Origin: Candidatus Kaiserbacteria bacterium
Lineage (GTDB): Bacteria; Patescibacteriota; Minisyncoccia; Phycocordibacterales; UBA2100
NCBI GenBank assembly: GCA_016217975.1
Contig: JACRFH010000065.1
Location: 1 to 35,390 of the forward strand
Direction: 5' to 3'
Length of the DNA: 35,390 nucleotides
Positions 20-16,484 of this stretch are shown here, in pieces (positions within the stretch are counted from its first letter, which is position 1; every line of letters starts with the position of its first letter). A model generated the notes under the pieces. That model saw only the letters and a program-made list of their open reading frames with translations. It was not told the DNA's origin and did not search any database. The translations under genes were made by a program, and so were the position numbers.

Positions 20-2296
20 ATGTTGCCTGATGACGCAATCGCGAAGCATTTCCGGCTCAATGCTGTACATACGTCATCGCTCCGGCGTCTCGGCCTCATT
101 CGTCTCCGCGACCTCCTCTACCACTTCCCTGTGCGCTACGAGCAAGCAGGAAGTGAAAGCCATGCAGTGTCGCTAGTGCCTGGCACCAAGGTGACACTCA
201 TCGGGAAACTCTCGGGCCTCAAAGCAAAAAAGCTCTGGAAAAGTAAGCGCAATATCACCGAAGGATGGTTTGAGGATTCAAGCGGTCGCGTCAAAGTCAT
301 GTGGTTCAACCAGCCCTACATGAAATCGTATGTGAAGGAAAACGATGTCGTAAAAATGACCGGCGCCGTTGGTGGCTCTTCCGATCGTCCGTATATTTCA
401 AATCCCGAAGTCGAGCCCTCGACCTTTGACGAATCCGCCCGGAACCTTTTTGCCTCTTCTAGCAACCCCGAAAAGCAGCAAGCTGCCTACGGGGCAGGCC
501 AGCGACAAGCAGCTAGCAACTTGTTCCCCGTCTATCCCGAAACAAAAGGCGTCACAAGCAAGTGGTTCTATCATGCGCTTCAGCGGCTCTTTGCCGCAGG
601 CGTACACAAAAAGATAGACGATCCGATCCCCGAAGACGTGCGCGCACGCTATCATCTTCCCGATCTTGCATCCGCATTAATATGGCTACACGTTCCGGAA
701 AAACTCCCGCACACTGAATCTGCTCGCAAACGCTTTGCATTCGAGGAAATATTTGTGCTCCAAATCGTGCGCGCTCTCGAGCGCAAGGAAAATGATGCGG
801 AAACCGGATTCGCGCTGCATGATGCAAAAACGAAAGCGGATACCTTTCTTGCGTCGCTTGATATGACACCAACGAGCGCGCAGGCTCGCGTAGTCAACGA
901 GATACTGGTGGATCTCGAGAAACCACATCCGATGGCGCGTCTCTTGGAGGGCGACGTCGGAAGTGGAAAGACGCTCGTCGCAGCAGCGAGCAGCTATGCA
1001 GTCGTGACGTCGCGCCCGCCAGGCCGAACCAGCGGTACGCTCCAAGTCGGATATATGGCACCCACAGAAATACTTGCCGCGCAGCATTTTGAATCTTTCA
1101 TCAATTATTTCTCCTCCAGAGGAGGATCCGCCTCCGGCGGACGAGATCTGTCCATCAATATCGGTCTCATCACCGGAAGTGGATGCAAGAAATTCCCATC
1201 GAAATCACGCCGGGGGTATGCAACCGATATTTCGCGAACACAACTTTTGAAATGGGTGGCAAACGGCGAGATCGCGATGCTTGTCGGCACCCACGCACTG
1301 ATTCAAAAGAAAGTGCAGTTCCAACATCTTGCGCTTGCAATCGTGGACGAACAGCACCGTTTTGGCACGAGGCAGAGAAGAGCGCTCGCGCATAAAGCTA
1401 AATCGCCTAAGGGCGATCGCTCGAACTCGCCGGAGGCGAGTTTTAGAGGCGATGCAGTACCGCATTTTCTCTCGATGACCGCGACTCCGATACCACGCAC
1501 ACTCGCGCTTACGATGTATGGCGATCTTGATATTTCAATCTTGGACGAACTTCCCCCGGGCCGCGCGAAAATAACCACAGAGATCGTGAAGCCCGCGGAG
1601 CGGGAAAACGCATACGAAAAAATGCGCAAAGAATTGCAAAAAGGTCGTCAAGCGTACGTAATCTGCCCGCGCATTGAAGAGCCTGATCCTGCAAAATTGA
1701 ATGCGCTCCAGGCAAAAAGTGCAAAAGCAGAAGCGGCACGTTTGCAGAAAGATGTATTTCCTGAATTCGCCGTCGGACTGCTCCATGGCTCGATGACACC
1801 GAAAGAAAAAGAAAATGTGATGCGAGAGTTCGCTGAAAACAAAATCCATATACTCGTGGCCACATCAGTTGTCGAAGTCGGCGTCAATGTCCCCAATGCG
1901 ACGGTAATCATGATAGAAGGCGCCGAGCGATTCGGCCTTGCGCAGCTCCATCAGCTTCGGGGGCGCGTGATGCGAAGCTCGCATCCGCCGCTGTGCTTCC
2001 TTGTCCCAGAGACCAAAGGAGAAATGGCAATGAAAAGATTACGCATGATGGAAAAGTCGCAGGATGGATTTGTACTCGCAGAAAGCGATCTCTCCAATCG
2101 TGGTGCCGGAGATCTATTCGGCCGCAAGCAATGGGGAGTCTCCGACATCGGCATGGAAGCTCTCAAAAATCCACGCCTCATCGAAGCTGCACGCCTTGAG
2201 GCCTTTGCGCTTATTGAGCGCGCCCCTTCGCTATCGGAATATGAGGCACTGCGCACGCGTGCGGCACTCGCGGATGCCGAGATGCATGACGAATAA
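20..2296 (+). CDS. recG: ATP-dependent DNA helicase RecG
   Basis: 758 aa; Walker A LLEGDVGSGKTLVA, DEQHRFG (DExH), MTATPIPRTLALT, VVEVGVNVPNATVMI-like and QLHQLRGRVMRS motifs, N-terminal wedge/OB region. Confidence 0.97.
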   Translation: MLPDDAIAKHFRLNAVHTSSLRRLGLIRLRDLLYHFPVRYEQAGSESHAVSLVPGTKVTLIGKLSGLKAKKLWKSKRNITEGWFEDSSGRVKVMWFNQPYMKSYVKENDVVKMTGAVGGSSDRPYISNPEVEPSTFDESARNLFASSSNPEKQQAAYGAGQRQAASNLFPVYPETKGVTSKWFYHALQRLFAAGVHKKIDDPIPEDVRARYHLPDLASALIWLHVPEKLPHTESARKRFAFEEIFVLQIVRALERKENDAETGFALHDAKTKADTFLASLDMTPTSAQARVVNEILVDLEKPHPMARLLEGDVGSGKTLVAAASSYAVVTSRPPGRTSGTLQVGYMAPTEILAAQHFESFINYFSSRGGSASGGRDLSINIGLITGSGCKKFPSKSRRGYATDISRTQLLKWVANGEIAMLVGTHALIQKKVQFQHLALAIVDEQHRFGTRQRRALAHKAKSPKGDRSNSPEASFRGDAVPHFLSMTATPIPRTLALTMYGDLDISILDELPPGRAKITTEIVKPAERENAYEKMRKELQKGRQAYVICPRIEEPDPAKLNALQAKSAKAEAARLQKDVFPEFAVGLLHGSMTPKEKENVMREFAENKIHILVATSVVEVGVNVPNATVIMIEGAERFGLAQLHQLRGRVMRSSHPPLCFLVPETKGEMAMKRLRMMEKSQDGFVLAESDLSNRGAGDLFGRKQWGVSDIGMEALKNPRLIEAARLEAFALIERAPSLSEYEALRTRAALADAEMHDE
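1112..1141 (+). repeat. 30-bp in-frame palindromic cassette, copy 1 (in recG)
   Basis: TCCTCCAGAGGAGGATCCGCCTCCGGCGGA; encodes SSRGGSASGG; near-identical to 10309..10338 (-). Confidence 0.9.
1398..1446 (+). repeat. Variable-stem double palindrome, copy 1 (inside recG)
   Basis: CTAAA-TCGCCTAAGGGCGA-TCGCTCGAA-CTCGCCGGAGGCGAG-TTTTAG; same skeleton as 15366..15413 and 16035..16090. Confidence 0.75.
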
Positions 2297-2298
2297 AA

Positions 2299-3636
2299 TC
2301 AGCAATTGGCACCTTGCCAGTCGCATTTTTTCCATCCCCCGCCCGAACATTTCATGATGGGAAGCTGGGTACCGCCGCTGTAGGTGCCGTTGGTGAAAAA
2401 CGGCTCATAGGGAACCTCATTGCCATTTGCGACCTGCTGGTTCCCCCACGGCGTCGTACATCCTCCGCCGACATTCGTCACATTTGGTATAGATTGCGCG
2501 ACGCCGTTTTTGTCGACCCATGCGCCATTTCTGCACGTGAGCGCGAGACCGCCATAATTCCCGCATGAAGTCAGTGGTAATTTTACGTCCGCACAATTTA
2601 CTTCAAGTGTGATACCGTCGGCGTACGAAATGCCAGAATAGATGCACATTTTGGGCTCTACAAAAGGTGTCGTATTTGCGCCGTTCTTCAATAGATCGGC
2701 AAAAAATTGAGACGAGTAACTATCAGAACTACTGGCATTAGTACTCACATTGCTCGAGACGGACGAGCCTGAGACGAAAAACATGGGACTCGCCGTGCGC
2801 GCAATCGCAGCACCGGAAGAAAGTAGTGTCGCAAGGAAACGATACGTGCCGTTCCCCACGCTACAGAGACCCGTGCACGCTCCTCCAGGCTGCGCTATCT
2901 GCACTATACACGTGAGCGGATCTCCTGCGCACGTATCCGTGTTTGATGGAGGCACGGGAAGCGTCCAGTAATACGACCCGCTAGATGGCAGGCCCGACGA
3001 TACGGTACCGAGCAATTGGCCGGAAGCGTAGTAAAGCGAGAGCGCGACGCTCGAGCTTGCGGGAGCGTTCACACTCGTCCATGCTATCGGTATGGTCCCT
3101 CCAGGAGTTGCTGTAGTGCTCGTCGCGGGTTTGGTAAAAATAATGCTCGGTCGCACTAAAATTGCACTTGTCTGCGTGGCCATTCCTGTCCCTGTGGGTG
3201 GAATAACAGCTTCGGGTCGGCGCTGATCCTGACAGCCCGCGAGTCTCCGAATCGTTGCAAGGGTTTTCGCTCTGACTGCGCCGTACTCACTATCCGATGA
3301 TTTCACGATAGCTTGTGCTGTTTGAAAACGGCGCACGGCTGCGCGCGTAAGATTTCCATAATAGCCGGTAACCAGACCTTCGGGATATATCAAAGGATCG
3401 CGCGCAAGAAATCGCTGCAGCAGTGTGACGTCGGGACCGGAATCGGTATATGCAAGTATTTTCGCGGGGGCAACGCATGTGTCCGTTGCGCTCCCCGACT
3501 GCATCGCAAGAAGCTGCGCCTGCAAGACCTGCAACTGGGCAAGAAGTGCCTGGAGCTGCGTCTCTTGCGCAGAAAGAGCGCTCGCGCAAAGCGGAGCAAG
3601 CGTAAGAGTGACGAAAACCAGGGCCGCGCGCTTCAT
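2299..3636 (-). CDS. Secreted peptidoglycan-binding-like (PG_binding_1) protein with coiled-coil N-terminus
   Basis: Signal peptide, LLAQLQVLQAQL heptads, then DVTLLQRFLARDPLIYPEGLVTGYYGNLTRAAVRRFQ. Confidence 0.8.
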   Translation of the reverse strand: MKRAALVFVTLTLAPLCASALSAQETQLQALLAQLQVLQAQLLAMQSGSATDTCVAPAKILAYTDSGPDVTLLQRFLARDPLIYPEGLVTGYYGNLTRAAVRRFQTAQAIVKSSDSEYGAVRAKTLATIRRLAGCQDQRRPEAVIPPTGTGMATQTSAILVRPSIIFTKPATSTTATPGGTIPIAWTSVNAPASSSVALSLYYASGQLLGTVSSGLPSSGSYYWTLPVPPSNTDTCAGDPLTCIVQIAQPGGACTGLCSVGNGTYRFLATLLSSGAAIARTASPMFFVSGSSVSSNVSTNASSSDSYSSQFFADLLKNGANTTPFVEPKMCIYSGISYADGITLEVNCADVKLPLTSCGNYGGLALTCRNGAWVDKNGVAQSIPNVTNVGGGCTTPWGNQQVANGNEVPYEPFFTNGTYSGGTQLPIMKCSGGGWKKCDWQGANC

Positions 3637-3639
3637 GCG

Positions 3640-4773
3640 CTAGTTCGTTATGGTCACGCCTGCAGTATCCACCTGTGACCCGCGCGTAAGCGTTATGGTG
3701 TAGCTTCCGGCGCTCCCATACGTATGCGTTTTCGTAAGACCGCTGACGACACTTTGCGCGCACGATGTGCCTTGCGGTGGACCCGTATAGTTGTCGTTGG
3801 AGCCGTCACCCCAGGTGAGCGTGTAGGGCGAGCATGACGATCCGAGACTGAATGTTATTTGCACGGCGAGTGGATTACCTCCAATCCCGGGCGTTATCTG
3901 CATTCCGCCAAGCGGAATATTCGTGTTCGGTGCTGGTGTCGTTGGTGTCGTTGGCTGGCTTGGAGCCGTCGGGCCATAGACGGTAACGGTGGCAGACGTC
4001 TGATGGGCTCCCGCCGAGAGCGTTATCTGAAACGTGCCGCCGTAATTATAGACATGCGTGTAGGTTTGATTTATTTGCCCACACGTATTTGCCGAGACGG
4101 GAATTTGGACGCCATTGCTTCCATCTCCCCAGTTGAGACTATAGATCGCTCCGACGCAGGAATTCGTGGTATTAACCGTCGCCTGCACATTCACCGATAA
4201 CGGCGTGTTGCCGGAAATCGGTGAGACCTGAATGTAGCCGCCGACCGAGGATGCTTTGCCCGAAACTCCCGCGCCCGTGGAGCACAAAAGCGCGATTGCC
4301 GCGGCGGTGCGGGGGCCAACAACGCCGAATCCGGTACTCCCAGGCGTCCCAGATGAGACGATGTTGTACCTCGTCTGCCAATGCTCGACGGCTTTCTGCG
4401 TGAGAGAGCCGTAGTAGCCGCTTATGATCCCTTCCGGATAGATGGATGGATCGCCTGCGAGAAATTGCTGCAGACGAGTGACATCCGCACCGCTCGATCC
4501 TCTCTTGAGCACCCGCCCGATGTTGGGACACGTACTTGAATTCACTCCGGCGCCTCCGGCAACGGGCACACTCACGCCCGTTCCCGGGTAGACAGTACCG
4601 TTTGTTGAGGTGACAACTTGACCACCTTGTTGCGCCGCGAGCTGGGCTTGGAGTGCTTGCACCTGCGCAAGAAGCGCTTGAGCTTGCGCGTGCAGATCGG
4701 CGGTCGTTTGTGCTGAAGCGAGAGCTGGCAACGACATCATTACTAAAAGCGGAAAAACGATGAGTTTTCTCAT
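3640..4773 (-). CDS. Secreted PG_binding_1 protein with PKD-like repeats; paralogue of the downstream gene
   Basis: Signal peptide, QAQALLAQVQALQAQL, DVTRLQQFLAGDPSIYPEGIISGYYGSLTQKAVEHWQ, two LNWGDGS/LTWGDGS ... THTYGSAGSYTITLT PKD-like units. Confidence 0.82.
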   Translation of the reverse strand: MRKLIVFPLLVMMSLPALASAQTTADLHAQAQALLAQVQALQAQLAAQQGGQVVTSTNGTVYPGTGVSVPVAGGAGVNSSTCPNIGRVLKRGSSGADVTRLQQFLAGDPSIYPEGIISGYYGSLTQKAVEHWQTRYNIVSSGTPGSTGFGVVGPRTAAAIALLCSTGAGVSGKASSVGGYIQVSPISGNTPLSVNVQATVNTTNSCVGAIYSLNWGDGSNGVQIPVSANTCGQINQTYTHVYNYGGTFQITLSAGAHQTSATVTVYGPTAPSQPTTPTTPAPNTNIPLGGMQITPGIGGNPLAVQITFSLGSSCSPYTLTWGDGSNDNYTGPPQGTSCAQSVVSGLTKTHTYGSAGSYTITLTRGSQVDTAGVTITN

Positions 4774-4812
4774 ACCCCAATTGTCGCATGGCCAAGACGC
4801 TCTGCAACTAGG

Positions 4813-5732: not shown

Positions 5733-6704
5733 TCAAGTGATGAGTGCCGAGACAGACTCGCCCGAGTGGATGCGTTGAATGGCGTCGGCGACAAGCGGAG
5801 CCATTGGGATCACGGTGACTTTTACGCGCTTGGATTTGAGAAGTGCAGGATCATGGCGAATGGTATCGGTAACGATAAGCTCATCTACATGGCTCTCGTC
5901 GAAACGCTTGATCACCAATGCCGGGTCGGATGCGAACACCGCGTGGGTTGCATAACAAAAGATGCGCTTCGCGCCTGCTTTCTTGGCGGCCTGTGCATCT
6001 GCGACCATTGTGCCGCCAGAATCGATTATGTCGTCTACAAAAAGTACGTCCTTGCCTTCGACGGACCCGACTATTTTGATGGATTCTTTGTCAACTTCGC
6101 CCGGCGCAGAACGACTCTTATAGAAAACAACGAAATCATCCTGGCCAAGCCTGCGCGCGTAGCCTTCGACGCGTTTAGTACCTCCCTGATCCGGGGACGC
6201 TACGACGTAGGGGTCGGTGAGAATACTTTGAAGATACGGAACAGTGACCTTTGACGAATATAGATGGTCGACGATGCGCGGATACATGAACCCCGCGGTG
6301 GGCTCGGAGTGAAGATCGAAGAAAAGTGCACGGTCAACGCCGGTATTTCCCAAGAAGCGCATGATCGTACGCGCGGCAAGCGGGACGCGTGGTCTGTCTT
6401 TCCTATCTTGCCTGTTGTAGCCAAGATACGTGGGCACGAGGGTGATGCGACCGGCACTTGAATCGTGCGCGGCTTCGGCAAGCAACACCATTTCCAAGAT
6501 ATTTTCTGCAGGCGGATTTGTCTGGTTGATGATAAAAACGTCCGCATCGCGGACGTTCTCGAGTATCTGCACGCGCACCTCGCCATCGCGGAAGCGGTTG
6601 ACCATCGCCTCCCCAAGCGGTACTCCCAGATGTTTGCACACGTCTTCGGCAAAACCCTTCGATGCCGTGCCTGCGAATATCTTGATCTTGCGGTGTCCGT
6701 TCAT
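5733..6704 (-). CDS. prs: Ribose-phosphate pyrophosphokinase
   Basis: KIKIFAGTASKGFAEDV, GYNRQDRKDRPR, VLFVDDIIDSGGTMVADAQAAKKAGA PRPP-binding motif. Confidence 0.96.
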   Translation of the reverse strand: MNGHRKIKIFAGTASKGFAEDVCKHLGVPLGEAMVNRFRDGEVRVQILENVRDADVFIINQTNPPAENILEMVLLAEAAHDSSAGRITLVPTYLGYNRQDRKDRPRVPLAARTIMRFLGNTGVDRALFFDLHSEPTAGFMYPRIVDHLYSSKVTVPYLQSILTDPYVVASPDQGGTKRVEGYARRLGQDDFVVFYKSRSAPGEVDKESIKIVGSVEGKDVLFVDDIIDSGGTMVADAQAAKKAGAKRIFCYATHAVFASDPALVIKRFDESHVDELIVTDTIRHDPALLKSKRVKVTVIPMAPLVADAIQRIHSGESVSALIT

Positions 6705-6725: not shown

Positions 6726-7868
6726 TTATCTGACGGCTTTTGCGACTGCGGGGGCAACGCGTTTGTCGAACATGTCGGGGAGGATTTTATTTGCGGTCGG
6801 CTTTGGGACGAGCGCCGCGATTGCATGGGCAGCCTTGAGTTTTATTTTTTCGGTGATTTTCGTGACGCCGTGATCAAGCGCACCGCGAAAGATGCCGGGG
6901 AATGCAAGAGAATTATTGATCTGATTCGGGAAATCCGAGCGACCGGTACCGACCACATATGCGCCTCCCTTTTTGGCTTCATCCGGCATGATCTCTGGCG
7001 TCGGATTTGCCATCGCAAATACGATTGCCTTCTTTGCCATGAGTTTGATGTCGGCGGAAGTGCAAAGGCGCGGACCGGATACACCGAGAAGCACGTCTGC
7101 GCCCTTGAGCGCATCCTGCAAACTTCCACTTTCATTCTTTGGATTCGTCCACGACGCCAAATCTTTCTTGTGACCATCAAGACCGGGCCTGTTCCGTGAA
7201 ATGATACCGGTGCGATCAAGCATGATGATATTTTTTGCTCCTGCTGCTTTCAAAAGCTTCGCGGTCGCGGTGCCTGCCGCCCCCGCTCCTGCAATCACGA
7301 TTCGTACCTGTGACATTTTCTTGCTCACAACTTTAAGTGCATTTACAAGTCCGGCCAAAACGACTACAGCAGTTCCGTGCTGATCATCGTGCATTACCGG
7401 AATGTCGAGTACGTCCGAGATTCTTTTTTCTATCTCAAAACATTTAGGTGCGGCTATATCTTCGAGATTAATGCCGCCGAATGCGGGAGCGACCGCGAGA
7501 ACTGTTTCAATTATCTTTTCCGTATCCTGCGTATCCAAGACGAGCGGTATTGCGTCCACATTCGCGAATGTCTTGAAAAGCGCACACTTCCCTTCCATGA
7601 CCGGAAGTGCGCCGAGTGCGCCGATGTTGCCCAGTCCCAAGACCGCCGAGCCATCGGAGATCACCGCAACCATTCTTCCTTTAATAGTATAGTCTCGCGC
7701 AAGCTTTTTATTCCCCGCTACGAGCATCGAAACTGCCGCTACTCCGGGGGTATACACCAGCGAAAGATCCGCCCTGTTTCGTACCGGCGCAGCTGGGATG
7801 ATGCGAATCTTCCCGCCCAGTCTTTTGTGGAGTGATAACGCCTTTTTGTCGTTTTGAGATTTGTTCAT
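6726..7868 (-). CDS. NAD(P)-dependent malic enzyme
   Basis: YTPGVAAVS, SDGSAVLGLGNIGALGALPVMEGKCALFK, NLEDIAAPKCFEIE, DDQHGTAVVVLAGL, GAGAAGTA motifs. Confidence 0.95.
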   Translation of the reverse strand: MNKSQNDKKALSLHKRLGGKIRIIPAAPVRNRADLSLVYTPGVAAVSMLVAGNKKLARDYTIKGRMVAVISDGSAVLGLGNIGALGALPVMEGKCALFKTFANVDAIPLVLDTQDTEKIIETVLAVAPAFGGINLEDIAAPKCFEIEKRISDVLDIPVMHDDQHGTAVVVLAGLVNALKVVSKKMSQVRIVIAGAGAAGTATAKLLKAAGAKNIIMLDRTGIISRNRPGLDGHKKDLASWTNPKNESGSLQDALKGADVLLGVSGPRLCTSADIKLMAKKAIVFAMANPTPEIMPDEAKKGGAYVVGTGRSDFPNQINNSLAFPGIFRGALDHGVTKITEKIKLKAAHAIAALVPKPTANKILPDMFDKRVAPAVAKAVR

Positions 7869-7880
7869 ATAAAGAATTGA

Positions 7881-8525
7881 TTATAAGTCGAGCACAGGCC
7901 ATCCAGTATATATCCACCCCTTGCCTCGGCGATTCTCTATCCATTTTTTGCCACCCGATATATTCGATAACTTCTCATTTAACCTACCTACGGTCGAATT
8001 AACCGTTCCGTGGTTAGGTAGCTGCTCTTTGATTATGTTATGGGGAACAACGGTTCCTTTGTGGGAGATAAATAGGCTGAACACCTTCCACTGTTGAGGA
8101 GTGAGATACTCTTCGAATGTACCGCACGTCACACGTCTAACGCCAGGAAACAGCAAAAAGGGTCCCGTTTTTATAGGTTCTCCCTGATCGACGATTGTCT
8201 CCCTCTTGCGGTCCATATTCTTGTCTGATCTGACAGCACGCAAACTTCGCGCATGCAAACCTGCACGACCATGCGATGCGACAAGTTTTTCCCAAGTTGC
8301 ATATTCTTCTGGAGAAAGCCGATATCGTTCGAAGGCTTCGTCCCGACTTATAAGATTAGTATTGACGGCAGATACGACATTTGCTTTATCCTCCGATCGC
8401 CAAAAATACTTATCTTGAGAGACGCCTGGAGCCCAAGTGGCGGGGGGAAGATCCTCAAGAGTCAACACTGTTCCATCACTCTTCCTCGGGATCTTATTTT
8501 TACCTTTCTCGGCCTGCTCGTTCAT
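7881..8525 (-). CDS. SciP (DUF1153)-like domain fused to C-terminal OmpR-type winged helix
   Basis: N-terminus VLTLEDLPPATWAPG...ISRDEAFERYRLSPEEYATWEKLVASHGRAGLHARSLRAVR resembles SciP; C-terminus LTPQQWKVFSLFISHKGTVVPHNIIKEQL...VGRLNEKL...WIENRRGKGWIY resembles Trans_reg_C. Confidence 0.7.
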   Translation of the reverse strand: MNEQAEKGKNKIPRKSDGTVLTLEDLPPATWAPGVSQDKYFWRSEDKANVVSAVNTNLISRDEAFERYRLSPEEYATWEKLVASHGRAGLHARSLRAVRSDKNMDRKRETIVDQGEPIKTGPFLLFPGVRRVTCGTFEEYLTPQQWKVFSLFISHKGTVVPHNIIKEQLPNHGTVNSTVGRLNEKLSNISGGKKWIENRRGKGWIYTGWPVLDL

Positions 8526-8556: not shown

Positions 8557-9855
8557 TCATTCTCGCACTATCTCACCTTCGGAGTAGCGGATCTTCCCGC
8601 CGACGATGGTGTAGACCGCTTTGCCGGTGAGCTTCTTGCCGATGAAGGGTGAGTTCTTGCCCTTTGAAAAGAATTTCTTGGCATCGACGATCCATTCCTT
8701 ATCGGTATCAAATATCGCGATGTCGGCGTCGGCCCCTACGGAGAGATGGCCCTTGTCGACGCCGATGATCTTTGCGGGAGCTATCGTCATCTTTTCTATT
8801 CCCTTCGAGAAGTCGATGTGTTTCTTTTTCACCAAGTAGGTATTCATGACCGCAAAGCTTGTTTCAAGTCCCACGAATCCGAATGCCGCGTCTTGAAATG
8901 CTTTTATCTTGTCCGGCTCGATGTGCGGCGCGTGATCGGTCGTGAAGCAATCCACCGTGTCGTCCTTGATGCCTTCAATGATCGCATCGATGTGGTCTTG
9001 TGAGCGAAGTGGTGGATACATTTTCGCATTGGTGTTGTAGCCCATGCATTCCTCGTCGGTGAGCGCGAAATGCTGGACCGAGACTTCAGCCGATATGTTT
9101 TTGGCTCCACGCTTTTTTGCTGCGCGAATTTCGCGCATAGCCCCCGCGGTCGAATTATGGAGGAGATGTAATCGCGCGCCAGTCTCTTCTGCAAGCAAGA
9201 TATTTTTGTAGACCGCAAGGTCTTCGGTTCCGGCAGAGATTCCCGGAAGGCCGAGCTGGGTCGAGACCCAGCCTTCGTGCATGACGCCGCCTTCGGTGAG
9301 CTCTTCCGTCTCGCAGTGACTCATGAGGAGCATGTCGCAGGTGCGCGCGTATTCCATCGCGCGCTTCAAAACCCCTTCGTGCTGCACATCCACGCCATCA
9401 TCCGTAATTGCAATCGCGCCAGAATTCTTGAGTTCGTTTATTTCACTAAGCATCGCGCCATTTTCACCCTTGGTGATGGAGCCTGCCGGATAGATGTTGA
9501 TGAGATCAAGCTCCCGAGCGCGCTTGAGAATAAATTCGATCACCGTTTGATTGTCGGCAATCGGTGTCGTGTTGGGCATCGTCACTACGCTAGTGACTCC
9601 TCCGGCAAGCGCGGCCATACTTCCCGTCTCAAGCGTTTCCTTATCTTCCCTTCCCGGCTCTCTGAAGTGCACTTGGATATCTATGAGGCCCGGTGTGACG
9701 ACGAGCCCGCTTGCATCAATTGTCTTGTCCGCTTTTTCTTTTAGATTTTTCCCAATCTTTGCGATCTTCCCATTTTCAACAAACACATCCATCACTCCAT
9801 CGACGTCATTTTTCGGGTCTACCACTCGTCCGTTTTTTATCAAAAGTGTAGTCAT
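8557..9855 (-). CDS. pyrC: Dihydroorotase
   Basis: PGLIDIQVHFREPGREDKETLETG, TTDHAPH, SHCETEEL motifs. Confidence 0.95.
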   Translation of the reverse strand: MTTLLIKNGRVVDPKNDVDGVMDVFVENGKIAKIGKNLKEKADKTIDASGLVVTPGLIDIQVHFREPGREDKETLETGSMAALAGGVTSVVTMPNTTPIADNQTVIEFILKRARELDLINIYPAGSITKGENGAMLSEINELKNSGAIAITDDGVDVQHEGVLKRAMEYARTCDMLLMSHCETEELTEGGVMHEGWVSTQLGLPGISAGTEDLAVYKNILLAEETGARLHLLHNSTAGAMREIRAAKKRGAKNISAEVSVQHFALTDEECMGYNTNAKMYPPLRSQDHIDAIIEGIKDDTVDCFTTDHAPHIEPDKIKAFQDAAFGFVGLETSFAVMNTYLVKKKHIDFSKGIEKMTIAPAKIIGVDKGHLSVGADADIAIFDTDKEWIVDAKKFFSKGKNSPFIGKKLTGKAVYTIVGGKIRYSEGEIVRE

Positions 9856-9993: not shown

Positions 9994-11046
9994 TCATTTG
10001 CGGACAAACTCTTTAGTCTTTCCGTCGATGCGGTCGCACAGAAGCCACAAGAGCGCCTTACGGACCGCCATGCCATTTTCTACCTGGCGCAAGATGTGCG
10101 ACTGCTCATCTACGGCGGCGAGCGCGGAGTGCACGTCGATATCGCGGATGACTGGTCCTGGGTGCATAAGAATTGCGTCCTTGCTCGCCAAGTCGAGGCG
10201 TTTGCGCGAGATTCCGAACATCTTGGAATATTCGCGCAGCGATGGAATGAAGCCGTTGGCCCCGCGCTCACTCTGCACTCGCAGTGCGTAGACGACATCA
10301 GCGCCTTTTCCGCCAGAGGCGGATCCTCCTCCGGAGGACAGCGCCTCTTCAATGTTTACAAATGTTTTTACGCCAAACTTCTCGACTTCTTTCGGCAAGA
10401 GCGTGAGTGGTGCCGCGACGCGGATCTCGGCTTTAAGCATTTTGAGGAGTCGCACGAGCGAGCCAAAGACGCGTGAGTGCGTGATGTCGCCGACGATCGT
10501 CACTGTCTTCCCTTTCATATCCTTGGATCCGAAATGATCGAGCATGGTGAGGCCGTCGAGAAGCGCTTGCGTGGGATGTTCGTGCCACCCGTCGCCCGCA
10601 TTCACGATCGATGCCTGCGTGTGCCGCGCCGCCATCTCGGGCACGCCGGATTCTTTGGAGCGGATCACGATTACTTTTACGTTGTATGCGTCGATGGTCT
10701 CGATCGTGTCGAGATAACTCTCGCCTTTTTGGAGCGAGCTGTTGGCCGAAACTCCCGCGGTATCCATCGAGAGCTGCTTGGCAGCGAGGTCGAAGCTTGA
10801 GCTCGTGCGAGTCGACGGTTCGAAGAAGGCGTTGACCTGCGAGTAGCCTTTGTTGAACGAAAATTTATAGGTGCGGTAGTCGCGGAATCTTCGTGCGACA
10901 TCGTAGATGAGCTCCAAATCCTTCTGCGTTACCTGATCAATCGAGACGAGATCTTGGAAAGAGAGGTCGCGATTTTTCCGAAAAGAATTGAGATCCTCTT
11001 CGGCTTCAGAAGGCGGTTTCCTTCGTAGCGCGATATCAGCAGTCAT
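9994..11046 (-). CDS. pyrB: Aspartate carbamoyltransferase catalytic subunit
   Basis: FFEPSTRTSSSFDLAAKQLS, HPTQALLDGLTM, MHPGPVIRDIDV motifs. Confidence 0.95.
   Translation of the reverse strand: MTADIALRRKPPSEAEEDLNSFRKNRDLSFQDLVSIDQVTQKDLELIYDVARRFRDYRTYKFSFNKGYSQVNAFFEPSTRTSSSFDLAAKQLSMDTAGVSANSSLQKGESYLDTIETIDAYNVKVIVIRSKESGVPEMAARHTQASIVNAGDGWHEHPTQALLDGLTMLDHFGSKDMKGKTVTIVGDITHSRVFGSLVRLLKMLKAEIRVAAPLTLLPKEVEKFGVKTFVNIEEALSSGGGSASGGKGADVVYALRVQSERGANGFIPSLREYSKMFGISRKRLDLASKDAILMHPGPVIRDIDVHSALAAVDEQSHILRQVENGMAVRKALLWLLCDRIDGKTKEFVRK
10309..10338 (-). repeat. 30-bp in-frame palindromic cassette, copy 2 (in pyrB)
   Basis: Minus strand TCCTCCGGAGGAGGATCCGCCTCTGGCGGA; encodes SSGGGSASGG between EAL and KGADVVYALRVQ. 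Confidence 0.9.
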
Positions 11047-12889: not shown

Positions 12890-14842
12890 TCAAGCCAGCG
12901 GCTGATGCTCGATGTCTTCTTTTTTCTTGGGAGTGACGCCGTTGGCGATGAGGATCTTCTCGAATTCGTCGCGCTCTATTGTTTCGACTTCCACAAGTGC
13001 TTTGGCAATCGCCACAAATGCTTTCTTGTGCGTCGTGATCACATCTTCGGCTTTCTTATAACAAGAGTCGATTATCTGCTTCACCTCATGATCAATCTGC
13101 TTGGCCACTTCTTCCGACCGCTCGCCACCTTCCAGGCCATTACCAAACATCGCGCGGCCGCGTGATGCATCAAACGCCATCGGGCCCATCTTGTCACTCA
13201 TGCCGTAGAGCGTCACCATGTCGCGCGCGAGTGACGTGAGTACTTGCAAGTCATTCGATGCGCCCGTCGTGAGATCATCAAACATCATCTTCTCGGCAAT
13301 GTAGCCGCCAAGTGAGACCGCAATGTCGTCAAGAAATTCTTTTTTCGACTGCATGCGCTTGTCATCAAACGGAAGTTTGAGCGTGTACCCGGCAGCTCTG
13401 CCGCGTGAAATGATCGAGACTTTGTGTACCGGATCGGCATATGGAAGCACGCTTGATACGATCGCGTGTCCCGCTTCGTGGTATGCGGTGATTTCTTTCT
13501 CGCGCCTATTGAGTACGTGTGAGGTGCGTTCGGGCCCAAGCATGACTTTCTCGATCGATCTGATGAGATCGAACTGCGTGAGCTCTTTCCTATCTTCGCG
13601 CGCGGCAAGAATCGCCGCTTCGTTCATAAGGTTGGCCAAGTCTGCTCCGCTAAATCCAGGCGTGCGTTCTGCGATGACGAACAATTTCACGTCGGGGCCA
13701 AGCGGCTTCTGGCGCGCATGCGTCGTTAAAATATCTTCGCGGTCTTTCCTATCCGGTAGATCAATCGTCACGCGCCTATCAAATCTGCCCGGGCGCAAGA
13801 GCGCAGGATCCAAGACATCCGGCCTGTTCGTTGCCGCCATCACGATCACTTTTTCATTGGGCTCGAAACCATCCATTTCGACGAGAATCTGATTCAAGGT
13901 CTGCTCACGCTCATCGTTGCCACCGCCGACCCCCGTGCCACGAATACGCCCCACCGCATCGATCTCGTCGACGAAAATAATTGCAGGCGCAGCTTTTTTG
14001 GCAGTCTGGAAAAGATCGCGCACGCGCGATGCGCCGACGCCTACAAACATTTCCACAAATTCTGATCCCGAGATCGAGAAAAATGGCACACCAGCCTCGC
14101 CTGCTACAGCTCTTGCAAGTAGCGTTTTTCCGGTTCCCGGTGCCCCCATCAATAAAACGCCCTTGGGAATTCGCGCACCGATCTGAATAAATTTCTTTGG
14201 ATTTTTCAAAAAGTCGACGATTTCCGTGAGTTCCACTTTCGCCTCCTTCGCACCTGCGACATCTTTAAACGTCACGCGCTGCACTTCGTCTTCGGGCGAT
14301 ATCAAACGCGCGAGAGATCTCCCAAACGTAAATGCCTGCATGCCTCCGCCTCCGCGAAGCTGCCGCGAGAGATACCAGATGACACCAAAAAGAAGTAGTG
14401 CTGGCACAAGTATCGGCACAAGCGTGAGGAACCAAAATCTGATGCCGCCTTCGTCCTTGATATCGATCGCGACAGCCCCAAGCTTTTCCGGCGAAACCTG
14501 AAAGCCGGAGAGTGTCTGCGTGAGCGACGCCTCACTTTCTTTGCGCGAAGTCTTTGTCGTCTTGTCAGAGTAGGTAGCGGTGAGCGAATCGCCTTCGATT
14601 GTAATAGCCGTAATCTTCCCTGCATCGATGTCAGTTGCGATCTGCGAAAGCGGCACTTCCTCACTTTTATTCGTCACATAATCGCGCACGAGCGAGTAGC
14701 CGGCAGAAAGCGCGAGGAATACCACAAGGGCTAGGCCCAGCTGCATCCAGATATTTGGACCCTCCCCTTTTGGGGGCGAGACGTTTTTGCCCTTCTTGGG
14801 CTTGTCTTTGTTGGAAGACGGCATGATAGACGCATTATACAT
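12890..14842 (-). CDS. ftsH: ATP-dependent zinc metalloprotease FtsH
   Basis: [26 protein letters not shown]-region [19 protein letters not shown], zinc-site HEAGH. Confidence 0.97.
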
Positions 14843-14948: not shown

Positions 14949-15386
14949 ATGTCGCTCATAGAAAACGCAAAAGTAACGTTTGACTACGACCTACTCGAGA
15001 CGATGGAGGCGGGTTTGGAGTTGTTTGGATTTGAGGTGAAGTCTCTGCGGGCAAAGCTGGGCTCGCTCAAGGGCGCACGCGTGGTCGCCCGAGGTGGCGA
15101 GGCGTATCTGGTAGGGGCCACAATCCCCGCCTGGCAGAAAGCCAACGCCCCCAAAAGCTTTGATCCAGAGCGCACCCGGCGGCTCTTGCTCAAAAAGCAG
15201 GAAATTGCGCATATTTCAAGCGCTGAAGGCCAGGCTGGATTGACAATAGTGCCACTTTCGGTGTACAATTCCGGACGAAATCTGAAGCTCTCCATCGCGG
15301 TGGCCCGCGGAAAGAAAAAACAAGATAAGCGTCTATCTATACGGGCCCGCGAAGAGAAGCGGCGACTAAAACGTCTTACAATGTAA
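14949..15386 (+). CDS. smpB: SsrA-binding protein SmpB
   Basis: ENAKVTFDYDLLETMEAGLELFGFEVKSLRAKLGSLKGARVVARGGEAYLVGATI, ARGKKKQDKR. Confidence 0.96.
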   Translation: MSLIENAKVTFDYDLLETMEAGLELFGFEVKSLRAKLGSLKGARVVARGGEAYLVGATIPAWQKANAPKSFDPERTRRLLLKKQEIAHISSAEGQAGLTIVPLSVYNSGRNLKLSIAVARGKKKQDKRLSIRAREEKRRLKRLTM

Positions 15387-15413
15387 GACGTTCGCCCGGC
15401 TCGGGGAGCTTAG
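15366..15413 (+). repeat. Variable-stem double palindrome, copy 2 (3' end of smpB)
   Basis: CTAAA-ACGTCTTAC.AAT.GTAAGACGT-TCGCCCG-GCTC.GGG.GAGC-TTAG. Confidence 0.75.
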
Positions 15414-15451
15414 GGATTGAGTACGTTGAAAGAGGAGTAATCAGCTTCAAA

Positions 15452-15571
15452 GTGTGGCTCCAACCAGAAAGGAAGGTGATTCCGTTGTGGGAGGTCCACG
15501 CCCTGATCGCAGTGATCACGGTCGTAGCGCTCGCCAGCTTGCTGGCCGTCGCGCGCCGACTTGATCGGTGA
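15452..15571 (+). CDS. Candidate 39-aa single-pass membrane microprotein
   Basis: GTG start; MWLQPERKVIPLWEVHALIAVITVVALASLLAVARRLDR; one strong TM segment followed by a basic tail; AGAGGAG upstream but at non-ideal spacing. Confidence 0.35.
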   Translation: MWLQPERKVIPLWEVHALIAVITVVALASLLAVARRLDR

Positions 15572-15646
15572 CGGGGGGCGGGCTCTGAGGGAATTCGGAC
15601 CCGCCACACTTTGGCGCTGATTGATGATCTTTGAAAATTAAATAGC

Positions 15647-15767
15647 CCAGCCGGTCCCCATGAGATATTAAGGTTCGACAGAGTACACGATTGATTAGAT
15701 TACAGACTCGATAGTTGAAAAAGATTTTGGTATCTCACGAAGGCCGGTTGGAAAAGACCAGCCACTC
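15647..15767 (+). ncRNA. Candidate structured 5' leader of the GIY-YIG gene
   Basis: Nested long-range pairings CCAGCCGG(15647)/CCGGTTGG(15744) and TGAGATA(15661)/TATCTCA(15731), with a competing hairpin GGCcGGT/ACCaGCC next to the start codon. Confidence 0.4.
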
Positions 15768-15776
15768 AGCTAAAGT

Positions 15777-16052
15777 ATGTCTGTGAACTACGCAGTATAT
15801 ATTCTCTATAGCGAGAAAGATAAACGTCTCTATGTGGGATGCACATCAAATCTCGACGAACGTCTTGCTCGACATCGAAGAGGAGAAGTCGGGGCGACCA
15901 GATTTCGGAGACCGTTAACGCTCATTCATTCGGAAGAGTTCGTCGACAAAGCGGAAGCGTTCAATCGCGAGCGATTTCTCAAATCTCTTTGGGGAGCTCG
16001 CGAAAAGAAGAAAATACTGCGGGAGTATCTTGGGCTAAAACATTCTGCTTAG
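15777..16052 (+). CDS. GIY-YIG domain nuclease family protein
   Basis: YAVYILYSEKDKRLYVGCTSNLDERLARHRRGEVGATRFRRPLTLIHSEEF...FNRERFLKSLWGAREKK. Confidence 0.92.
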   Translation: MSVNYAVYILYSEKDKRLYVGCTSNLDERLARHRRGEVGATRFRRPLTLIHSEEFVDKAEAFNRERFLKSLWGAREKKKILREYLGLKHSA

Positions 16053-16090
16053 CAGAATGTTCGCCCGAACATGCCATAGGCATGTTTTAG
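16035..16090 (+). repeat. Variable-stem double palindrome, copy 3 (abuts tmRNA 5' end)
   Basis: CTAAA-ACATTCTGC.TTA.GCAGAATGT-TCGCCCGAA-CATGCC.ATA.GGCATG-TTTTAG. Confidence 0.8.
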
Positions 16091-16478
16091 GGGGGTGACT
16101 GGCTTCGACAGGAAGTTCAGTTTGCCTGTGTGCAAGACGAAGGCGGACGAACCTTCTAAAAATCGTCCAAACCTAAGTGCAAACAAAACTGCACGGGGGG
16201 TTCTCTCTCCTATTCAGGTGGGAAATCTCGGCTTCGCCTTCGCCTAAACGCGCGGTGCGACCGTTCACTCGATGATTCCGATGCGCTGATGTGAACGTCA
16301 TATTATCGGATACGGCTTTTAATTCACTCCGACTAAAAGCTTAAAGAAAGAGAGTCCGACGCACGACTATGTTGCGCATTCTGTAGGTCGTATGTCTAAA
16401 CAAAATTGAATGCCCTACGTCTTGTAGATTCGCTTGCAGATCATTTTCTGGACTCGGGATCATTCCCCGACACCTCCA
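16091..16478 (+). ncRNA. ssrA: Transfer-messenger RNA
   Basis: 5' GGGGGTGACTGGCTTCGACA pairing with 3' CACCTCC-A; tag reading frame after AAGT-GCA-AAC; located downstream of smpB. Confidence 0.95.
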
Positions 16479-16484
16479 CCCATT

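Follow-up and report, generated by a model that had tools for sequence, protein, structure and literature searches.

Introduction

SciP, CtrA and GcrA are cell-cycle regulators of alphaproteobacteria. In Caulobacter, SciP occupies GCGNC-type sites 60-90 bp upstream of transcription starts, mostly together with CtrA sites, and the SciP and CtrA proteins touch each other (PMC4287350). SciP leaves CtrA on the DNA, while the recruitment of polymerase is blocked (PMC6169604). A single gene in a Candidatus Kaiserbacteria contig raises the question of what a SciP-type domain does when it is joined in one protein to a winged helix, and whether the pairing has anything to do with the SciP-CtrA partnership. 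A preliminary description of this gene, made from sequence alone, had proposed that a SciP-like regulator is fused to a CtrA-type DNA-binding module without a receiver domain. Here the two halves of the protein, its locus and its relatives are considered in turn. The window is the whole stretch of 35,390 nucleotides that was analyzed.

Two domains in one chain

A SciP/DUF1153 domain and an OmpR-type winged helix are confirmed in one receiver-less chain (Table 1). In Pfam, PF06627 (DUF1153) matches residues 15-97 with 67.2 bits against a cut-off of 23.5 (E 1.4e-18); the HMM search thus places the N-terminus where the preliminary description had seen a resemblance. PF00486 (Trans_reg_C) matches residues 141-204 with 27.0 bits against 26.2, a narrow pass for the proposed Trans_reg_C-like winged helix. 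Neither Pfam nor NCBIfam finds a receiver domain in the 214 residues, in agreement with the original reading. In a sequence search of the PDB, the sole solved relatives of the N-terminal half were the DUF1153 structures 2jrt (5e-10) and 2oa4 (2.7e-6).

The AlphaFold2 model (mean pLDDT 79, pTM 0.50) shows two confident domains, with many blocks at 84-93, on either side of a disordered linker. With Foldseek, the N-terminal half is matched to 2jrt, at 41% identity in the fold alignment, and the C-terminal half to the DNA-binding domains of PhoB, PrrA, CadC and RstA, so that both expected folds are supported. The alignment of 13 rows that served as input to AlphaFold2 included hand-picked CtrA winged helices, so that for the C-terminal fold the model falls short of fully independent evidence.

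Table 1. Coordinates of the fusion gene, its encoded domains and the neighboring genes in the window
Feature	Position	Strand	Basis
Fusion protein gene, 214 aa	7881..8525	-	ORF with ATG start; Pfam; AlphaFold2 mean pLDDT 79
SciP/DUF1153 domain, aa 15-97	8235..8483	-	PF06627 67.2 bits; alignments; 2jrt by sequence and fold
Predicted flexible linker, aa 99-111	8193..8231	-	AlphaFold2 pLDDT < 50
OmpR/PhoB-type winged helix, ~aa 118-208	7902..8174	-	PF00486; Foldseek; shortened loop before the recognition helix
pyrB, aspartate carbamoyltransferase	9994..11046	-	Pfam OTCace_N and OTCace
pyrC, dihydroorotase, upstream, 31-bp gap to fusion	8557..9855	-	Pfam Amidohydro_1/DHOase
Malic enzyme, downstream, 12-bp gap to fusion	6726..7868	-	Pfam malic and Malic_M
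prs, ribose-phosphate pyrophosphokinase	5733..6704	-	Pfam Pribosyltran_N and Pribosyl_synth

The SciP half

The best NCBIfam model for the fusion protein is the SciP equivalog NF051866, with 70.1 bits. The core residues L26, P27, W42, K47, A48, V50, V51, A64, R67, Y68, L70, E74, W78, G86 and L90, which are those invariant in an alignment of the window protein with six SciP proteins, are intact. In the alignment, 8 additional residues precede the conserved Trp42, and the basic WVIRRK stretch of SciP reads WRSEDK in the window protein, so that much of its basic character is gone. Compared with SciP (PF06627; NF051866), the alphaproteobacterial inhibitor of CtrA, the N-terminal 83 residues are thus alike at 67 bits, whereas the window protein differs in its score below the equivalog cut-off of 100 bits, its eroded basic stretch, its 8-residue insertion, its fusion to a winged helix and the lack of a detected CtrA partner in its genome. 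The proposal of a SciP-like regulator accordingly stands as far as membership of PF06627 is concerned, but not as a SciP of equivalog grade (70 against 100 bits) in a genome in which CtrA was found.

A transposase-type helix-turn-helix, which the preliminary description had named as the competing identity of this half, was rejected, as HTH_28 gives 15.0 bits (cut-off 25) and IS481 17.8 bits, against 67 for DUF1153.

The partial loss of the basic stretch might suggest that the SciP half is a protein-interaction module, in which case the winged helix would find the DNA and the SciP half would contact polymerase or another regulator. This would resemble the way in which SciP represses through contact with CtrA, keeping polymerase off (PMC6169604). 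However, SciP also binds a DNA motif of its own (PMC4287350), and the window protein retains the helix-turn-helix core, for which a pI of 9.5 is calculated; we consider the interaction module distinctly unlikely.

The N-terminal domain probably stems from SciP stock common to alphaproteobacteria and some CPR bacteria; the SciP tree singles out no donor for it, and neither a direction nor a number of transfers between these groups.

The winged helix

The C-terminal half had been described as a CtrA-type DNA-binding module, and this part of the description is not supported by the sequence comparisons. In NCBIfam, the VanR model (17.2 bits) and the CtrA model (NF045991, 16.9 bits) are equally weak matches. 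In a tree of winged helices, a branch with 100/100 support separates seven CtrA-type domains, among them that of a second fusion protein discussed below, from generic response regulators. The window domain falls among the latter, where it joins a regulator of Methylocystis, but its branch is so long that the exact position is unsure. When the winged helix alone was searched against 397 genomes of the order, no close kin was found (best other match, 1.3e-4). Because clear kinship with CtrA is lacking, the fusion is not a simple joining of two known partners.

The fold is that of the OmpR/PhoB DNA-binding domains (PF00486), as in PhoB, PrrA, RstA and CadC, and the Pfam cut-off is narrowly passed. 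Unlike OmpR/PhoB response regulators, however, the window protein has a SciP domain in place of the N-terminal receiver, belongs to no clear subfamily and has a loop before the recognition helix that is shorter than in every regulator aligned. A comparison with the CtrA-SciP pair is similarly two-sided: the fusion holds the same two kinds of DNA-binding module that cooperate in Caulobacter, but its winged helix falls outside the CtrA clade, it has no receiver, and it is one chain rather than two proteins.

Genomic context and the probable insertion

The host genome (0.94 Mb, 90.6% complete, contamination estimate 0.09%) shares its genus with Candidatus Kaiserbacteria bacterium RIFCSPHIGHO2_02_FULL_55_25 (G001), and the label of a CPR-type genome was therefore right. 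On the minus strand the order of genes is pyrB, pyrC, the fusion gene, malic enzyme and prs. Among the same-genus genomes searched with pyrC, close homologues were found only in G001 (79% identity) and G034 (70%). In G034 the genes run pyrB-pyrC-malic enzyme, pyrC leading directly to the malic enzyme gene with no regulator between them, and in G001 a different gene follows pyrC. The codon score of the fusion gene is 0.03, compared with 0.24-0.28 for the malic enzyme gene, pyrC, pyrB and the frame at 12890-14842, and its GC content is also unlike that of its neighbors. On the strength of the G034 site without the gene and the atypical codon usage, the fusion gene is read as an insertion: it looks like foreign or atypical DNA placed into an existing operon.

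Contamination or misassembly could also produce a gene of atypical composition. Such an artifact is hardly credible here, given that the gene sits in a one-strand run whose pyrC is closely matched in two same-genus genomes, that the genome-wide contamination estimate is very low, and that the relatives described below (G453 set aside) occur on CPR contigs of 19-326 kb.

No relative of the whole fusion protein was found by exact-pattern scans of the genome and viral collections. A tblastn search with the fusion returned none in phages, and in alphaproteobacterial plasmids it returned only separate SciP genes or response regulators. Within the collections searched, the fusion in this domain order is thus known from a single genome. 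This rarity, together with the differing codon usage and GC content, the G034 site without the gene and the erosion of SciP consensus residues, would be expected of a gene that was acquired recently and has no settled role, either a chance fusion or a decaying passenger in the pyr operon. Yet the frame is open across 214 codons, both domains score above their Pfam cut-offs, the fold-defining residues are kept in both and both model well, and the two domain types are fused again, in reverse order, in a second genome. A gene without a settled role is therefore rated as rather unlikely, though with an appreciable chance of being correct.

No promoter-like site was found near the fusion gene, and a search for inverted repeats ahead of it and of pyrB gave none. 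Full-site SciP motifs number 27 in the window where 30 are expected, which is no enrichment. A search for CtrA in the window genome (G000) matched nothing beyond one generic response regulator and an isolated receiver; as the assembly is ~90% complete, CtrA could be absent merely from the assembly. Elsewhere in the window (14949-16481), an SmpB-like frame, recognized by eye, lies near a tmRNA gene (Rfam RF00023, 106.6 bits).

SciP, CtrA and GcrA homologues in other CPR genomes

DUF1153 is rare in the CPR genomes sampled. Of 397 genomes from the order, 6 have a match above the cut-off; the class gave 2 among 387 genomes and the phylum sample 1 among 382, the window's own genome being counted each time. 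The three samples overlap, and Caulobacter, the positive control, was detected. This agrees with the earlier expectation that the fusion would be unusual in CPR genomes. Within the genus, DUF1153 matches were found in 4 of 52 genomes, including G453, whose CtrA and SciP matches lie on ~1-kb contigs in an assembly that is both oversized and fragmented; these were excluded as probable contamination. Two further candidates were rejected: the match in G204 is below the cut-off, falls across a ribosomal-L10-like frame and appears fortuitous, and that in G047 looks like an IS3-type OrfA. In what follows, flanking genes that were not run against Pfam or NCBIfam are named from a reading of their translations.

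In G001, SciP is followed by CtrA and a ParB-like gene and adjoins fmt, def and mreB (MFLL01000021.1, 19,079 bp; 1846-4792), on a contig whose GC content shows no sharp break along its length. On a 326-kb contig, G025, of the same genus, encodes a 91-residue SciP flanked by NUDIX and DNA polymerase III delta-prime-like genes, with mreB close by. At 128.7 bits in G001 and 129.8 in G025, both SciP proteins exceed the 100 bits that the equivalog model requires. The CtrA equivalog cut-off of 350 is passed by the proteins of G001 (357.1) and G446 (367.7). The latter genome and G447 are both of the same genus, and their CtrA homologues (contigs C7 and C9) are 61% and 42% identical, respectively, to CtrA of G001.

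In G704, a ParB-like, a CtrA-like and a SciP gene follow one another, flanked by rpe-like and transketolase-like genes. In G773, SciP and a CtrA-like gene converge, and a ParB-like gene and a terminal oxidase operon lie next to them. For the CtrA-like proteins of both genomes CtrA is by far the best model, and their receivers fall under the Pfam cut-off, i.e., are degenerate. The same G773 contig encodes a GcrA homologue (C2:104722-105207), with 178.7 bits for PF07750 (cut-off 26.9); in NCBIfam it reaches 268 bits, short of the 280 set for the equivalog. A search of ten genomes for ChpT returned none. G634 has SciP alone, and G1088 has a distant DUF1153 match of 42 bits. As side observations, the CtrA-like protein of G773 has a weak C-terminal ribbon-helix-helix match below the cut-off, and the CPR genome G646 contains, at the end of a contig, a CtrA-type winged-helix fragment (C3:22397-22615) that converges with a groEL-like gene and is possibly chimeric.

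CtrA and SciP homologues are both present in viral contigs. One 35.5-kb IMG/VR viral contig carries a SciP-like gene (2935-3198) with 51% identity over 59 residues to Sinorhizobium SciP. The presence of both homologues in viral contigs makes a viral route of transfer possible. It could also be taken, together with the weak transposase-type matches and the horizontally acquired look of the gene, to mean that the fusion is a regulator or remnant of a mobile element, combining a transposase-type helix-turn-helix with a winged helix. This is very improbable, however, since DUF1153 outscores HTH_28 by 67 to 15 bits, the operon neighbors examined include no transposase or phage gene, and the viral and phage searches returned no relative of the fusion itself.

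An opposite-order fusion

The proposed search of CPR genomes for the same fusion yielded no other protein with the domain order of the window protein and one with the opposite order. The latter is a 191-residue protein from G565, of the same order (L072:1489-2064), in which the winged helix is N-terminal and DUF1153 C-terminal (36.2 bits). Its winged helix scores 51.6 bits, and CtrA is its best model (57.6 against 36.6 bits). The gene adjoins a dnaX-like gene on a 107-kb contig. Like the window protein, it joins a winged helix and a SciP domain in one receiver-less chain in a CPR genome; unlike it, the order is reversed, the winged helix is CtrA-like, and the gene lies elsewhere in the genome. 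The reversed order and the unlike winged helices point to separate fusion events for the two proteins. The occurrence of such fusions in both orders further suggests a functional partnership, i.e., that the two domain types work together.

Proposed mechanism

The reading that we slightly favor, at little better than even chances, is that of a phosphorylation-independent, two-headed DNA-binding repressor in which a covalent link stands in for the SciP-CtrA contact. The SciP-type helix-turn-helix, tethered to the OmpR-type winged helix through the flexible linker, would form a two-headed transcription factor, and because there is no receiver domain, the protein would not be switched by phosphorylation. 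One polypeptide could then read a composite site made up of a SciP half-site and a winged-helix site, where the most likely outcome would be repression. In PhoB-type activators, the loop before the recognition helix contacts polymerase. The shortening of this loop in the window protein therefore fits repression better than activation. The most likely target, tentatively predicted, would be the protein's own pyrimidine/malic-enzyme operon. DNA binding, repression and targets are what we infer for the fusion.

Counted in favor of the two-headed repressor are the action of SciP and CtrA at adjoining DNA sites in Caulobacter (PMC4287350; PMC6169604), the calculated pI of the fusion protein (9.6), the adjacency of SciP to CtrA-like genes in three CPR genomes (G001, G704 and G773), the lack of CtrA in the host assembly, the opposite-order fusion, the support for both folds and the insertion. 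Counted against it are the partial loss of the basic stretch, the sub-equivalog score, the failure of the searches to return a homologue of the whole fusion, the absence of enrichment of SciP sites and of a promoter-like site, the lack of clear CtrA kinship in the winged helix and the chance that CtrA is missing only from the ~90% assembly.

On a wider scale, the homologues are hints that parts of a well-studied cell-cycle circuit moved across phyla. It is plausible, if somewhat short of an even chance, that some CPR bacteria acquired SciP, CtrA and GcrA and rewired them, the window gene being the most compact outcome, a phosphorelay-free SciP/winged-helix repressor in one protein. The rewiring itself, held with the same reserve, would be visible in CtrA-like proteins whose receivers are degenerate and whose genes neighbor ParB-like genes, as well as in the fusion of SciP and winged-helix domains twice, in opposite orders.

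Implications

A literature search, which did not extend to subscription papers and preprints, returned no paper reporting SciP, CtrA, GcrA or their fused forms in CPR bacteria. The locus presents a SciP domain, otherwise typical of alphaproteobacteria, fused to an unrelated DNA-binding domain in a tiny uncultured CPR bacterium. Equivalog-grade SciP and CtrA proteins, one GcrA homologue and the fused forms together provide a direct comparative handle on this circuit in CPR bacteria. They open the question of whether contact between SciP and CtrA is the functional core, retained even where there is no phosphorelay, and that of how division might be controlled in episymbiotic bacteria, which have few regulators.
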